Of a stretch of 37,461 nt of DNA, positions 28,786 to 34,414 are shown piece after piece. Numbering within the stretch: the first letter of the stretch is position 1; every line of letters begins with the position of its first letter. Position numbers and translations under genes: made by a program. Under the pieces are notes generated by a model, which made no database searches, was not told the DNA's origin, and worked only from the letters and a program-made list of their open reading frames with translations. Location of the stretch: assembly GCA_005887685.1 (NCBI GenBank), contig VBHJ01000024.1:35467-72927 (forward strand), read 5' to 3'. This DNA is from Chloroflexota bacterium (lineage in GTDB: Bacteria > Chloroflexota > Dormibacteria > Dormibacterales > Dormibacteraceae).

Positions 28786-29559
28786 GTGCCGAGTGTTTTC
28801 AGCCGGACGTTTCCGGTCCCGGGGGCGGCGGTGGCGGGAGATCCGGGCGGGCTGATCACGCCCGGCAACCTGCAGGGGCAGACCGAGCACTTCTCGGTCT
28901 ATGTCGATCCCGGCCTCGGACCGGACGGGGTGCAGGACGCGCAGGGCGTGCTGGCGAGCTGCGAGACCGACTACGCAAAGGTCGCCGGCTACTTCGGCGG
29001 GCTGGACGCCGGCCCGTTCAACGTCATTCTTTTCGCGAACCCGGGCGGCGCGTACCACCAGACGTGCGCCGCGACCGACCTTTTTTGCGACGCCAGGACC
29101 AACCCGGCCGACGGTGACTACTCCGAGTTCCTGAACATCGCGGAGTTCGTCGAGGTGTTCGAGGCTGCGCAGGCCGCGGGTTGGGATTGCGGAATGAGCA
29201 ACGGCGAGGGGCTCTCGCGCGTCCTGGCGACCGACGCCTATCCGAACGAGCTGGATGGCTTTGCCACCGCGTCGAGCTGGCTCGATTCGAACCGGCAGAA
29301 CTTCGTCGACCGCAACGACCACAGCGACACCAATCCGCTTGCCAACGGCTGCTCGGTGCTGTTTTTGAACTGGCTGCGATTCCAGCTCAACTTCACGTGG
29401 CCGCAGATCGCCGGCGCCGCGGCGCCGACCCTTGAGCGGGCCTACAACAAGCTGACGGGAAAGAGTGACGGCTTCAGGCAGTTCTCGAGCCTCCTCGTTT
29501 CGCACTTCCCGAAGGGCGGTCCGTCCGGACTCACGACCGATAACCCGTTTCCCCTCTGA
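28786..29559 (+). CDS. Conserved hypothetical protein, possible degenerate metalloprotease-like fold
   Basis: 257 residues from a GTG at 28786; no clear signal peptide or membrane helix. I do not recognise it firmly. Visible features are a Pro/Gly-rich N-terminus (GGLITPGNLQGQTEHFSVYVDPGLG), a strand FNVILFANPGGAYHQTCAA, a helix AEFVEVFEAAQAAGWDC followed by SNGEGLSRVLATDAYP, then WLDSNRQNFVDRNDHSDTNPLANGCSVLFLNWLRFQL. The helix plus GEGLSR downstream has the spacing of a zinc-peptidase helix and third ligand, but the HExxH histidines are missing. The gene is divergent from lacI across about 120 bases with no other obvious signal, and its 3' end overlaps the iminopeptidase gene by 29 bases. 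Confidence 0.65.
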   Translation: MPSVFSRTFPVPGAAVAGDPGGLITPGNLQGQTEHFSVYVDPGLGPDGVQDAQGVLASCETDYAKVAGYFGGLDAGPFNVILFANPGGAYHQTCAATDLFCDARTNPADGDYSEFLNIAEFVEVFEAAQAAGWDCGMSNGEGLSRVLATDAYPNELDGFATASSWLDSNRQNFVDRNDHSDTNPLANGCSVLFLNWLRFQLNFTWPQIAGAAAPTLERAYNKLTGKSDGFRQFSSLLVSHFPKGGPSGLTTDNPFPL

Positions 29560-30523: not shown

Positions 30524-32233
30524 CTAGCCGCCCAGGGCCTGGAGCAGGTCCTTCAGCTGCGCCGTCTGCCAGTCCTGGAAGGTCGCGCCCGCTGGTGTAA
30601 GCGTCTCGGTCATCTTCACCACCGGAATCCTCTTCGAGGTCGCCTTGTCCACGAGTCCCTGGATGTCGGGCGTCGAGTTCTGCGAGTTGAAAAGGAACAC
30701 CCGGATCGCCCTTGACGCGATCTGGCTCTCGACCTCGGCCTTGTCCGCCGCGCTCGGATCGGTGCCTTCGCTGATCGCGTTCAGGTAGCTATAGGGCGTC
30801 ACGAGGTCAAGGCCTGTCCCATCGGCCAGGTACGAAAAGATGCTTTCTGTGGCGCCGACCTTTGTGCCCGCGTGCTTCTGCCTGATGGCGCCGATGGTGT
30901 CGTGGTAGTCCTTCAGGCCGACGGTCCAGTACTGGGCCGCCTGCTGTGTGAAGACGGAAGCATTCGCGAAGTCGATCTTCCCCAGGTCGGAGGCGATTCG
31001 GTCGATCACCTGGTCGACGTAGGCCGGCGAGTACCAGAGGTGCGGGTTGTCGCCCTCTTTCTTGCCGAAGAGATCGGCCACGGTCAACACGGTGCGACCT
31101 GCGACGGGGTTGGCTCCGATCAGCTTGGGCGCCCACGCGTCGTAGCCGGCGCCGTTGAGGATCACATACTGCGCCTGCGCGATCAGGCGCGCATCGCCGG
31201 GCGTGGCCTCATACGAATGGGGATCGGTGTCTGGGTTGACGATGATGCTAGTCACCTGCACGCGCGAACCGCCGACCTGGGCGGTGATGCTGCCCCAGAA
31301 GTTCTCAGCCGCCACGACCCGCACCTTTCCGGACTCGGCGTTGCCGGTCGGTGACTGGCTCAGGCCGCACGCCGAAAGCAGCAGAGCCGCGGCCACCGCG
31401 ACGCTCTTGATCGGGAGGCGGAGGACGATGCGGCGCCCGAGCTGGGAGATCAGGTACCCGGCAAACGCCAGCGCGGTGATGAAGAAGCTCGAGGGATACG
31501 AGACATAGAAGGAAAGGACAAGGCCGAGCCAGACCACGGCCACGGCGATCAGGGCCGACAGCCCCATCCCCAACCACGGGCGCGCCGTGAGGTTCTGGGC
31601 GATCGCGGCCGGCGTGACCATCAGTCCGAAGATCAAAAGCGCCCCCACCGCCTGGACAGACTCGGCCACGGTGACCGCGACCAGGACCATGAACAGCGCG
31701 GTGAGCGCGCGGGTGGGCACGCCTCGCGCGGTGGCGACGTCCGGATCGATGGTCACGAACAGGAGCGGGCGCGCCACCAACAGCGTGACGGCCGCGGTGG
31801 CAAGGCCGGTGATCGACCCGACGACGACCTGGACCTGCTGCAAGCCGAGGATCGATCCGAAGAGCACGCTGATCCCGACCGAACCCGTGGCGCCACTTCG
31901 CGCGGAGGTGTAAAGGCTCAAGAAGAGGACGCCCACCCCGAGCACCCACGCAAAGATCGTGCCGATGGCCACGTCGCGGCCTCTCCCCCGGCCGCCGAAC
32001 GTGCCGATCGCCAGCGCCACCGCGATGCAGCTGCCGAAAACGCCGACAAGCAGATTGAGCCCGGCGAGCAAACCGCCGAGGCTTCCCGTGAAAGCAACAT
32101 GACCGAGGGCGTCGGACGTGAAGACCTCGTTGCGCAAGACGACGAAGTACCCGACCAGCCCTGCCGCCAGCGCGATGCAACCGCCGGTGACGAAGGCGTT
32201 GCGCATGAAGTCGAGCGCGAGCATCTGCCCCAT
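30524..32233 (-). CDS. Metal ABC transporter permease fused to its metal-binding lipoprotein
   Basis: 569 residues from the ATG at 32233 (TGAGGT upstream, five bases after the preceding stop). Residues 1-265 are a ZnuB/SitD-type permease of about eight helices (GYFVVLRNEVFTSDALGHVAFTG, FVTIDPDVATARGV, GALLIFGLMVTPAAIAQNLTARP). Without any stop or good start it continues as LRLPIKSVAVAAALLLSACG, a lipoprotein signal with Cys289. Residues 300-569 are a cluster A-I metal-binding protein: DPHSYEATPGDARLI (His339), NPHLWYSPAYVDQV (His398), VGATESIFSYL (Glu463). Signal peptidase II cleavage at Cys289 could separate the halves; otherwise the binding domain is tethered. No His-rich Zn loop is present, so the metal (Zn, Mn or Fe) is open. 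Confidence 0.88.
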   Translation of the reverse strand: MGQMLALDFMRNAFVTGGCIALAAGLVGYFVVLRNEVFTSDALGHVAFTGSLGGLLAGLNLLVGVFGSCIAVALAIGTFGGRGRGRDVAIGTIFAWVLGVGVLFLSLYTSARSGATGSVGISVLFGSILGLQQVQVVVGSITGLATAAVTLLVARPLLFVTIDPDVATARGVPTRALTALFMVLVAVTVAESVQAVGALLIFGLMVTPAAIAQNLTARPWLGMGLSALIAVAVVWLGLVLSFYVSYPSSFFITALAFAGYLISQLGRRIVLRLPIKSVAVAAALLLSACGLSQSPTGNAESGKVRVVAAENFWGSITAQVGGSRVQVTSIIVNPDTDPHSYEATPGDARLIAQAQYVILNGAGYDAWAPKLIGANPVAGRTVLTVADLFGKKEGDNPHLWYSPAYVDQVIDRIASDLGKIDFANASVFTQQAAQYWTVGLKDYHDTIGAIRQKHAGTKVGATESIFSYLADGTGLDLVTPYSYLNAISEGTDPSAADKAEVESQIASRAIRVFLFNSQNSTPDIQGLVDKATSKRIPVVKMTETLTPAGATFQDWQTAQLKDLLQALGG

Positions 32234-32238
32234 CGACC

Positions 32239-33141
32239 TCAGGCCTTCGCCGCCGACCACGCGCGGCGAATGTGCTGCTTCCCTGTGCGTAGAGCCAAAG
32301 CTCCTTTCACGGCTCGAATCGCCACGTACACGGCGAAAGCGAGGCTTGTGATGAAAAATCCGACCGGGAGGTTGCTGAAGTACGCGAGGGCGAGGCCCAA
32401 CCACGTGAATGCCAACGAGAGCACGATGCTCAGGGCCAGGGCGCGAGCCGGCCTCGCTGTGAGCTGAAGTGCGGACGCCGCGGGCGCGACGAGCAGGGCG
32501 AATATGAGCAGCGTGCCCACGATCTGCACCGTGATCGCGACCGCCAGGGCGAGGACGACGAGGAATGCGATCGAGATGCGGCGCACACGCACTCCGCGCG
32601 CCTCGGCCACATCAGGGTCGACGGTGGCGAAGACAAGCTGCCGGCCGAAGATGGCGAGCGCCGCGACGCCGAGCAACGCCACGACGAAGGTGAGCTGGAC
32701 ATCTCGATCGGAGATCCCGAGGATGGTCCCGAACAGGAAGCTGTAGATGCCTGCCGCGCTGCCCGCGTAGAGACGGAAGAAAAGCAGGCCGAGCCCCAGC
32801 GAAAACGCCAGGATCGAGGCGACGGCGGCCGACTCGGCGCGATGGCCGGCATCGACCGTACGGCCAACCCAGCCGATGCCAAGCGCCGCGACGACGCAAA
32901 AGACGATCAGGCCGAAAACCGGCGCGACGTGGACGAGCACCGCACCCGCCGCGCCCGGAAAGCCGACCTGCGAGAGCATGTGCGCCGCAAAGCTCTGACC
33001 CCGCAGCACCACGAAGTACCCAGCCGCCCCGGCAAGCAGGGCGACCAACGTGGCGGCGCCGAACGCGTTGTGCATGAAGTGGAACTGAAGCAGCAGCTGC
33101 ACGTCAGCCACGAGATCCCACGACGGTCCTGGCTGAGACAT
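32239..33141 (-). CDS. Metal ABC transporter permease (ZnuB/SitC-like)
   Basis: 300 residues from the ATG at 33141, which shares one base with the ATPase stop (TGATG). Eight or so helices in the ABC-3 permease pattern: FMHNAFGAATLVALLAGAAGYFVVLRGQSFAAHMLSQVGFPGAAGA, FATVDPDVAEARGV, TLLIFALLVAPAASALQLTARP, LPVGFFITSLAF. Together with the permease half of the next gene it probably forms a heterodimeric channel, as in two-permease systems of the Sit/Yfe/Tro kind. The basic C-terminal tail (GALALRTGKQHIRRAWSAAKA) is longer than usual. Confidence 0.9.
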   Translation of the reverse strand: MSQPGPSWDLVADVQLLLQFHFMHNAFGAATLVALLAGAAGYFVVLRGQSFAAHMLSQVGFPGAAGAVLVHVAPVFGLIVFCVVAALGIGWVGRTVDAGHRAESAAVASILAFSLGLGLLFFRLYAGSAAGIYSFLFGTILGISDRDVQLTFVVALLGVAALAIFGRQLVFATVDPDVAEARGVRVRRISIAFLVVLALAVAITVQIVGTLLIFALLVAPAASALQLTARPARALALSIVLSLAFTWLGLALAYFSNLPVGFFITSLAFAVYVAIRAVKGALALRTGKQHIRRAWSAAKA

Positions 33142-33941
33142 CAGTGATCGACCGGGTGGTAGCTGACCGGCTCGTGCTGCCCGACCACGATGAGCCGGCC
33201 GTCGCTGGTCTTCAGCACCTCGACAGGGGCGCCGTAGAGCCGGGTCAGGGTTTCGGTCCGGATCACCTCTTCCGGTTTGCCGCACAAGACGTGACCGCCG
33301 GCGACATACACGACCCGATCGACGAAGGGGAGGATCGGGTTGACGTCGTGCGCGACCAGGAGAACGGTCACGCCTTGCCTCTCGCAGATCGTGCGAATCA
33401 GGTCCGATATCGCCTGCTGGTTGTTGAGGTCGAGGCTCTCGAGGGGCTCATCCAGCATCAGCATTCGGGCCCCGGTGACCAGCGCCTGGGCGATCAGGAT
33501 GCGCTGCTGCTCGCCGCCAGACAGCTCGCCGATCGGCCGTTCGGCGTAGGCGGAGGCGCCCACCAGCTCGATCATCCGCCGGACCCTGTCTTCCTTGGTC
33601 CGCGAGGGGAGCGGCACCCCAAGCCGATCGCCGTCGAGTCCCAGGCGCACCAGGTCGAGGGCGCGAATGCGCAGGTCGGGGTCGAACCTGCGGCGCTGGG
33701 GCAGGTAACCGACCTCGTCGTTGCCGCGGCGGACCGGGCGTCCGAAGACGCGCACCGTGCCGGCGCTGAGCGGGACGACGCCCAACAGCGCCTTGAGCAG
33801 GGTGGATTTCCCCGCGCCGTTGGGTCCGAGGACCGCCACGAACTCGCCGGCCGCCACCTCGAGGTCGGCATCGCGCCACACGAGGTGGCCTCCGAGCGAA
33901 ACGCTTGCCCCCTCCAGCGCGACCGCGCTCGAATTGCCCAC
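33141..33941 (-). CDS. Metal ABC transporter ATP-binding protein (ZnuC/MntB-like)
   Basis: 266 residues from a GTG at 33941 (an open frame continues to 34007 but runs through the repeat array). Walker A GPNGAGKST, Q-loop VGYLPQRRRFDPDLRI typical of the Zn/Mn/Fe ATPases, signature LSGGEQQRILIAQAL, Walker B LMLDEPLESLD, switch VAHDVNPILPFVDRVVYVAGG. The 'QRRRFD' after the Q-loop is usual in this branch. It energises the two permeases downstream; overlapping stops and starts make one operon. A G-rich stretch precedes the GTG. Control is expected from the divergent Fur-family gene. Confidence 0.92.
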   Translation of the reverse strand: MGNSSAVALEGASVSLGGHLVWRDADLEVAAGEFVAVLGPNGAGKSTLLKALLGVVPLSAGTVRVFGRPVRRGNDEVGYLPQRRRFDPDLRIRALDLVRLGLDGDRLGVPLPSRTKEDRVRRMIELVGASAYAERPIGELSGGEQQRILIAQALVTGARMLMLDEPLESLDLNNQQAISDLIRTICERQGVTVLLVAHDVNPILPFVDRVVYVAGGHVLCGKPEEVIRTETLTRLYGAPVEVLKTSDGRLIVVGQHEPVSYHPVDH

Positions 33942-33960
33942 CGCAACGCTCCCCCACAAG

Positions 33961-34012
33961 ATGCGCAAGATTATTGCACAAGCCGTATGCGCAAGCCGAA
34001 TGCGCAACCCGC
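33961..34012. repeat. Four tandem 13-bp repeats, consensus ATGCGCAAGCCGA
   Basis: Units start at 33961, 33974, 33987 and 34000: ATGCGCAAGATTA, TTGCACAAGCCGT, ATGCGCAAGCCGA, ATGCGCAACCCGC. Three share ATGCGCAA exactly and the second differs at two bases of it. The array fills the space between the divergent metal-transport and Fur-family genes and lies just upstream of the -10 element at 34014, so it is a candidate cooperative metal-regulator binding site. Confidence 0.75.
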
Positions 34013-34027: not shown

Positions 34028-34414
34028 ATGCCCCGACCGAGCCCGGTGACCGACGAGGTGCGCCGCCTTTTCGAGATCCGGGAACGCCACGCGTGGTCGA
34101 TCGAGGAGCTGCACGACACGGTCCGAACCTCGCTCGGATCCGCGGACTACTCGTCAGTCTTCAGGGCGGTCAGCCTGCTCGAGAGGCAGGGTCTCATCGA
34201 CCGCATCGACCTCGGCGAACGCCACGCGCGCTTCGAGCTCCGCGACGACCACCACGAGCACATCCGCTGCGAGAGCTGCGGGCGCGTGGCGGAGGTCCCG
34301 GTCTGCGTCCTGGACGACGCGGCGGCTCAGGTGCAGAGCCTCACGGGCTATCGGGTTCTCAGCCACCAGGTGGTGTTCGGCGGCCTTTGCCGGGAGTGCG
34401 CGGCCAGCGCCTGA
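34028..34414 (+). CDS. Fur family metal-responsive regulator (Zur-like)
   Basis: 128 residues. A winged HTH (about 8-62, with WSIEELHDTVRTSLGSADYSSVFRAVSLLERQGLIDRIDLG) is followed by the Fur dimerisation domain: HARFELRDDHHEHIRCESCGRVAEVPVC, with HH at 75-76, structural-zinc Cys81 and Cys84, and the partner pair Cys121 and Cys124 (GLCREC). The size and divergence from a metal importer point to a Zur- or Mur-like repressor; sequence alone does not fix the metal. In-frame codons upstream to 33905 cross the repeats and are rejected in favour of the ATG at 34028. The stop abuts the convergent alcohol dehydrogenase stop. Confidence 0.9.
   Translation: MPRPSPVTDEVRRLFEIRERHAWSIEELHDTVRTSLGSADYSSVFRAVSLLERQGLIDRIDLGERHARFELRDDHHEHIRCESCGRVAEVPVCVLDDAAAQVQSLTGYRVLSHQVVFGGLCRECAASA

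Follow-up and report, generated by a model that had tools for sequence, protein, structure and literature searches.

Can the permease of a putative metal importer and its own binding lipoprotein be encoded as a single chain and, if so, how did this chain arise and what becomes of it after translation? This question is raised by a stretch of 37,461 nucleotides (the window, by which we mean the whole stretch analysed) from a Chloroflexota bacterium, in which the initial annotation had described a permease running in frame into a lipoprotein signal and a complete metal-binding protein. The features needed for the argument are the following:

30524..32233, minus strand: fused ORF (P0001, 569 aa), permease 2 joined to a metal-binding lipoprotein (ORF, Pfam and relatives)
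31445..32215, minus strand: ABC-3 permease domain PF00950, residues 7-263 (Pfam)
31409..31411, minus strand: ATC codon (Ile275), where the separate lipoprotein gene of G007 and G008 has its start ATG (junction alignment)
31373..31408, minus strand: predicted signal helix, residues 276-287, after the positive permease tail (AlphaFold2 model and charge count)
31367..31378, minus strand: lipobox Leu-Ser-Ala-Cys (LSAC), residues 286-289 (sequence and fusion alignment)
30539..31318, minus strand: metal-binding protein domain PF01297, residues 306-565 (Pfam)
32239..33141, minus strand: permease 1 (PF00950), a separate gene (Pfam)
33141..34007, minus strand: ABC ATPase, listed ORF whose true start is uncertain (Pfam)
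33961..33994, no strand given: putative operator, ATGYGCAAGAKTATTGCACAA then TGCGCAA (conserved repeat block)
34028..34414, plus strand: Fur-family regulator (PF01475), divergent (Pfam)

The in-frame fusion is confirmed: one ORF holds both Pfam domains in full, free of stops between them, and the lipobox initially read from the sequence is intact, LSAC ending at Cys289. On the minus strand, the ORF opens with the ATG at 32233 and its stop ends at 30524; taken mechanically, the frame can be extended upstream as far as a GTG at 32404, but relatives begin to align at about residue 1-3 counted from 32233, which is thus the likely start. The first domain scores 151.8 bits against PF00950 (cut-off 20.1; residues 7-263), identifying an ABC-3 permease, and the second 163.7 bits against PF01297 (cut-off 29; profile positions 1-262 of 263), identifying a ZnuA-type binding protein. 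Among the five fusions described below, Asp41, His45 and Asp87 of the permease domain are invariant and can be likened, by eye rather than by computed alignment, to the Asp47-His51-Asp94 triad of MntBC. Likewise, His339, His398 and Glu463 of the binding domain are invariant in all five, Glu463 facing a His of AztC in an alignment to AztC read by eye. Judged from what we take to be the ligand residues of known binding proteins, these three are the candidates here, with no fourth picked out. The sequence points to an ABC-3/cluster A-I metal ABC importer, whose transport of metal is putative; none of the 12 NCBIfam families listed for named systems (AztB, AztC, ZnuB, MntC, SloB and others) reaches its curated cut-off, the best scores being 132.4 bits versus 280 for AztB and 79 versus 350 for AztC. 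The window's genome (3.05 Mb in 264 contigs) has one PF01297 match. The named records of the nearest relatives (L048-L054) are metagenome-assembled Chloroflexi genomes, for which a soil origin is suggested only by depth labels in the record titles.

The order of the operon is ATPase, permease 1, then permease 2 fused to the binding protein, with the Fur-family regulator adjoining. Permease 1 is likely the heterodimer partner of the fused permease. The cognate ATPase scores 105.4 bits against PF00005, and an ATPase match is present in the fetched stretch of 12/12 relatives. Between regulator and ATPase, ATGYGCAAGAKTATTGCACAA followed by TGCGCAA is strongly conserved in all ten genus members with the operon, and a search of the window for ATGYGCAAGAKTATTGCACAA with at most two mismatches returned one match (0/100 shuffles matched); the conserved block at 33961-33994 is likely an operator. 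An alpha/beta hydrolase gene (PF00561; 29531-30505, minus strand) starts 18 bases past the stop of the fusion, on the same strand, and may be the operon's last gene, and an ORF of 257 aa at 28786-29559 on the plus strand has no Pfam match at 0.001. In the outgroup G023 (L167), the binding-protein gene comes first, ahead of ATPase, permease 1 and permease 2 in that order, while it stands behind permease 2 in the ten genus members that have the operon (genus loci L158-L166 were compared). This adjacency appears particular to the genus group, and a move of the binding-protein gene to after permease 2 would have made a fusion possible.

The initial annotation rightly held that binding proteins are normally separate. 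It had also called for a search for the same fusion elsewhere, and four more genus genomes turned out to contain it. Protein searches (61 genomes, 46 with a match; 17 genus genomes, 16 with a match) divide the genus as follows:

— Five genomes are fused, namely the window's own (G000) and G003, G006, G009 and G015, the fusions of the latter four being full-length, in one frame and 70-78% identical to that of the window.

— Five genomes (G007, G008, G011, G012 and G014) have separate neighbouring genes in the same order, the stop of the permease and the start of the lipoprotein overlapping as ATGA; in these close relatives the two genes are probably translationally coupled.

— Six genomes (G001, G002, G004, G010, G013 and G016) have distant homologues only (about 40-51% identity), and the protein search of the genus gave no match in G005.

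Accordingly, it is not the case that relatives always have separate genes, as the initial annotation had allowed for, since fused and separate states are equally frequent in the genus (5/17 each).

The DNA of the junctions differs between the fusions. Compared with G007 and G008, the window has a 2-base gap about 10 bases upstream of ATC275 (near 31421-31423), just ahead of the former overlap, and ATGA is replaced by ATCA, the start of the lipoprotein thereby reading Ile275; further in-frame 3-base gaps lie within the signal. In G003, G006, G009 and G015, the comparison with G011 reveals instead a gap of 29-32 bases, which has eliminated the tail and stop of the permease as well as the start of the lipoprotein and the beginning of its signal. 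The permease tail is altered in all five fusions, and only 7/40 columns of the junction are invariant among them, versus 175/258 in the permease and 146/263 in the binding protein.

The operon tree (ATPase, permease 1, permease 2 and binding protein; 12 rows and 1106 columns, G004 having been fetched and compared and left out) places the window's genome with the separate-gene G007 and G008 (100/100) and keeps it away from the other four fusions, which group together at 86/95 (not starred) next to G011 (82/84). A single origin, with all fusions in one clade, was rejected on this tree (p-AU 1.7e-9). The rpoB trees covered 14/17 genomes, four of the five fused ones included (no rpoB match was obtained in G006, G012 and G016). 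From rpoB DNA, G000, G007 and G008 were joined (100/99), most other branches being weak, and one clade of the four included fused genomes was again rejected (p-AU 9e-61); the three other included fused genomes were not recovered as a clade, on weak branches. In the rpoB protein tree, the grouping of G000 with G007 and G008 reached only 92/95 (not starred). Because the window's genome is placed among species with separate genes and away from the four remaining fusions, we regard as sound the conclusion, drawn from sequence comparison, that the fusion arose at least twice. The origins could exceed two, as rpoB leaves the other fusions ungrouped and the protein tree gives 92/95. That the fusion originated independently at least twice, through different junctions, had not been foreseen in the initial annotation.

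The fused chain displays no signal peptide at its N-terminus, the signal lying about 275 residues in. Leu286 and Cys289 of the lipobox are invariant in 5/5 fusions, and the -2 residue is Cys in G006 and Asn in G015, both unusual with respect to what we take to be the usual residues. In the AlphaFold2 model of the fusion (61 rows, mean pLDDT 87.1, pTM 0.73), the last permease helix occupies 248-269 and, after a break, residues 276-287 form a further helix (block means of about 50), followed by a stretch at 288-299 with pLDDT below 50 and by a well-predicted binding domain; with 12 residues, the predicted signal helix is short for crossing the whole membrane. Between the last permease helix and the lipobox, Lys and Arg number 4 in G000, 3 in G003 and G009, and 2 in G015 and in G006 (where the count ended at a Cys two residues ahead of the aligned lipobox Cys), and Asp and Glu number 0 in all five. 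In PMC8487065, the last helix of Bacillus anthracis MntBC is modelled as running into the cytoplasm, with a charge of +5. The cytoplasmic permease C-terminus postulated in the initial annotation is thus probable, given this model and the positive tail in the window (Lys+Arg 4, Asp+Glu 0 in its Tyr-to-Cys segment). Lgt is present in 17/17 and LspA in 16/17 genus genomes, and both are present in all five fused ones. A second, weaker LspA-like match occurs only in G000 (C203:10171-10497, 27.3 bits), G007 (C78:2293-2637, 32.1 bits) and G008 (C32:4567-4941, 52.2 bits) among the 17, the three genomes that group on trees.

From these data we infer the topology, cleavage, stoichiometry and metal transport of the fusion in the following way. 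The second permease gene has merged in frame with the lipoprotein gene that comes next (in close relatives the two share an ATGA overlap), and one polypeptide would be translated. The permease would insert with its C-terminus in the cytoplasm, and the old lipoprotein signal would run outward, forming a hairpin with the last permease helix and carrying the binding domain across the membrane. Lgt would then lipidate Cys289 and LspA (signal peptidase II) would cut before it, giving in a 1:1 ratio a permease extended by a short C-terminal helix and a binding protein anchored by its lipid like any ordinary lipoprotein. We attribute a probability of roughly 70% to this reading, i.e. one translation product cut by LspA into permease and ordinary lipoprotein. 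Cutting is favoured over a lasting tether, two outcomes between which the initial annotation had not chosen, because the Leu and Cys of the lipobox are invariant, the signal helix has 12 residues, and Lgt and LspA are present. Several points count against it: the youth of the fusions may account in part for the retention of the lipobox, the -2 residues of two fusions (Cys in G006, Asn in G015) are presumably unusual, and truncation of the cytoplasmic C-terminal helix of MntBC abolishes transport, according to PMC8487065, yet the permease tail has changed in every fusion.

The main rival, which we consider unlikely, is that the chain stays whole, the binding domain being tethered by the signal helix and a short linker in the manner of OpuA. 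Indeed, an anchored and covalently linked binding domain works in OpuA, where it is held by a membrane anchor helix and an 11-residue linker (PMC11065425), and the predicted helix 276-287, with a low-confidence stretch ahead of the binding domain, would suit such an arrangement. However, a tether needs no Cys, yet Leu and Cys of the lipobox stand invariant in 5/5 fusions within a variable junction, the predicted helix is short for a transmembrane anchor, and both Lgt and LspA are at hand. Alternatively, the fused frame could be open and the binding protein nonetheless made separately, from an internal start codon. The window offers GTG280, nine residues before Cys289 (ATC275 occupying the former ATG site), and G009 offers ATG244, TTG251, GTG269, GTG272 and GTG277. 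Yet GTG280 would yield no charged n-region, and the codons of G003 (GTG271, TTG277), G006 (ATG273) and G015 (GTG244 only) provide no charged signal peptide of normal length. In the window, G003 and G006, no ATG, GTG or TTG between residue 241 and the lipobox Cys would start a signal peptide that is both charged and full-length, and the internal start codons of G009 and G015 are located either at or before the last permease helix, or near the Cys without positive charge. As no clear ribosome-binding site was seen by eye in the 18 bases before the candidate codons either, separate initiation seems highly improbable.

A sequencing or assembly error hiding a stop and a start in the window's genome would agree with the fact that the window's own junction comes from one assembly (264 contigs), and that in G007 and G008, its closest kin, the genes are separate. 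Such an error would nevertheless have to combine the loss of 2 bases with that of the ATG, an indel error alone being insufficient because the former start was also changed to ATC, and four other species, apart on the operon tree, are fused through a different junction. The comparison with relatives, aimed at the missed frameshift of which the initial annotation had warned, thus leaves an error scarcely credible for the window, four other species having the full-length fusion in one frame and the former ATG being now ATC, and on the same grounds error is ruled out as a general cause. Finally, the fusion could be ancestral to the ten genus members with the operon and have been split again several times, given that change counts on the tree cannot separate gain from loss. 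This is quite unlikely, as three re-splits would be needed (G012 with G014, G007 with G008, and G011), each restoring the ATGA overlap in the same relative frame, and the fusions present two unlike junctions.

Beyond the genus, the genome-wide searches covered the Chloroflexota only. In the class (110 genomes, 74 with a match at 1e-30), no match to both domains outside the genus was found among the matches listed, the match in G019 (residues 211-567) having an open frame of only 394 aa. The phylum search (400 genomes from the larger group, 84 matched at 1e-60, including three of the five known fusions) likewise gave none outside the genus among the matches listed. Among 72,556 plasmid records, 27 cover at least 80% of the query, of which 23 list at least two separate features and four (H2, H4, H26 and H27) list no features. 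In the best 80 of 304 confirmed named loci, a permease is followed by a binding protein on one strand and within 400 bases in seven (L048-L054), and the only fused ones are L048 and L054 (corresponding to G006 and G009). In open-licence papers, we found no specific binding-protein-to-permease fusion among ABC-3 metal importers, via an internal lipobox or otherwise, nothing on polytopic proteins with an internal lipobox, and no paper on FbcH.

Fused and separate states coexist in closely related species of one genus. If the cut-chain reading is true, LspA may act as a polyprotein protease, and permease-lipoprotein pairs may fuse repeatedly at almost no cost, the metal importers of this genus being a live case; on this generalization we are evenly divided. 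Fusion would be nearly costless because LspA, in this reading, can cut a lipobox behind a polytopic protein with a cytoplasmic end. The natural pairs of fused and separate genes allow one to test whether cells process an internal lipobox that follows a polytopic membrane protein, to ask whether uptake can be sustained by a binding protein produced 1:1 with its channel, and to study how an operon overlap becomes a gene fusion.

Known systems resemble the fusion in part. ZnuABC, AztABC and PsaBCA share both domains, the ATPase and a nearby Fur-family regulator with it, but their permease and binding protein are separate chains, and the window's operon has two different permeases. The nearest solved relatives are PsaB (7kyo/7kyp), ZnuB (9oko), AztC (5kzj/5w57) and 8svc; by Foldseek, the permease matches PsaB and the binding domain matches AztC, ZnuA and kin, and no solved chain covers both domains among the 45 listed by sequence or the best 50 by fold (Foldseek). 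The cytochrome b/c1 polyprotein FbcH of Bradyrhizobium joins a polytopic membrane protein to an exported one and is cleaved by a signal peptidase, but it differs in that signal peptidase I and redox proteins are involved. OpuA (glycine betaine) and GlnPQ (amino acids) belong to other transporter families than the fusion's, and to our knowledge their joint is without a lipobox; YtgC of Chlamydia is a permease that we take to belong to ABC-3. Two zinc-transport papers mention, in general terms, the possibility of a binding protein being fused to its permease (PMC7731109, PMC9820375). Like the fusion, OpuA and GlnPQ of Lactococcus have their binding domain covalently linked to the permease (PMC11065425, PMC8025302), and chlamydial YtgCR is a metal permease fused at its C-terminus to a partner and later cut; that partner is a DtxR-like repressor and not a secreted lipoprotein, and a lipobox cut is not described in the available text of PMC7755916. 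Binding-protein-to-permease fusions in other ABC families (OpuA, GlnPQ) and a cut metal-permease fusion (YtgCR) are therefore known, whereas what appears new in the ABC-3 family, with respect to the literature and sequence searches above, is a metal-importer permease joined to its binding protein through an internal lipobox.
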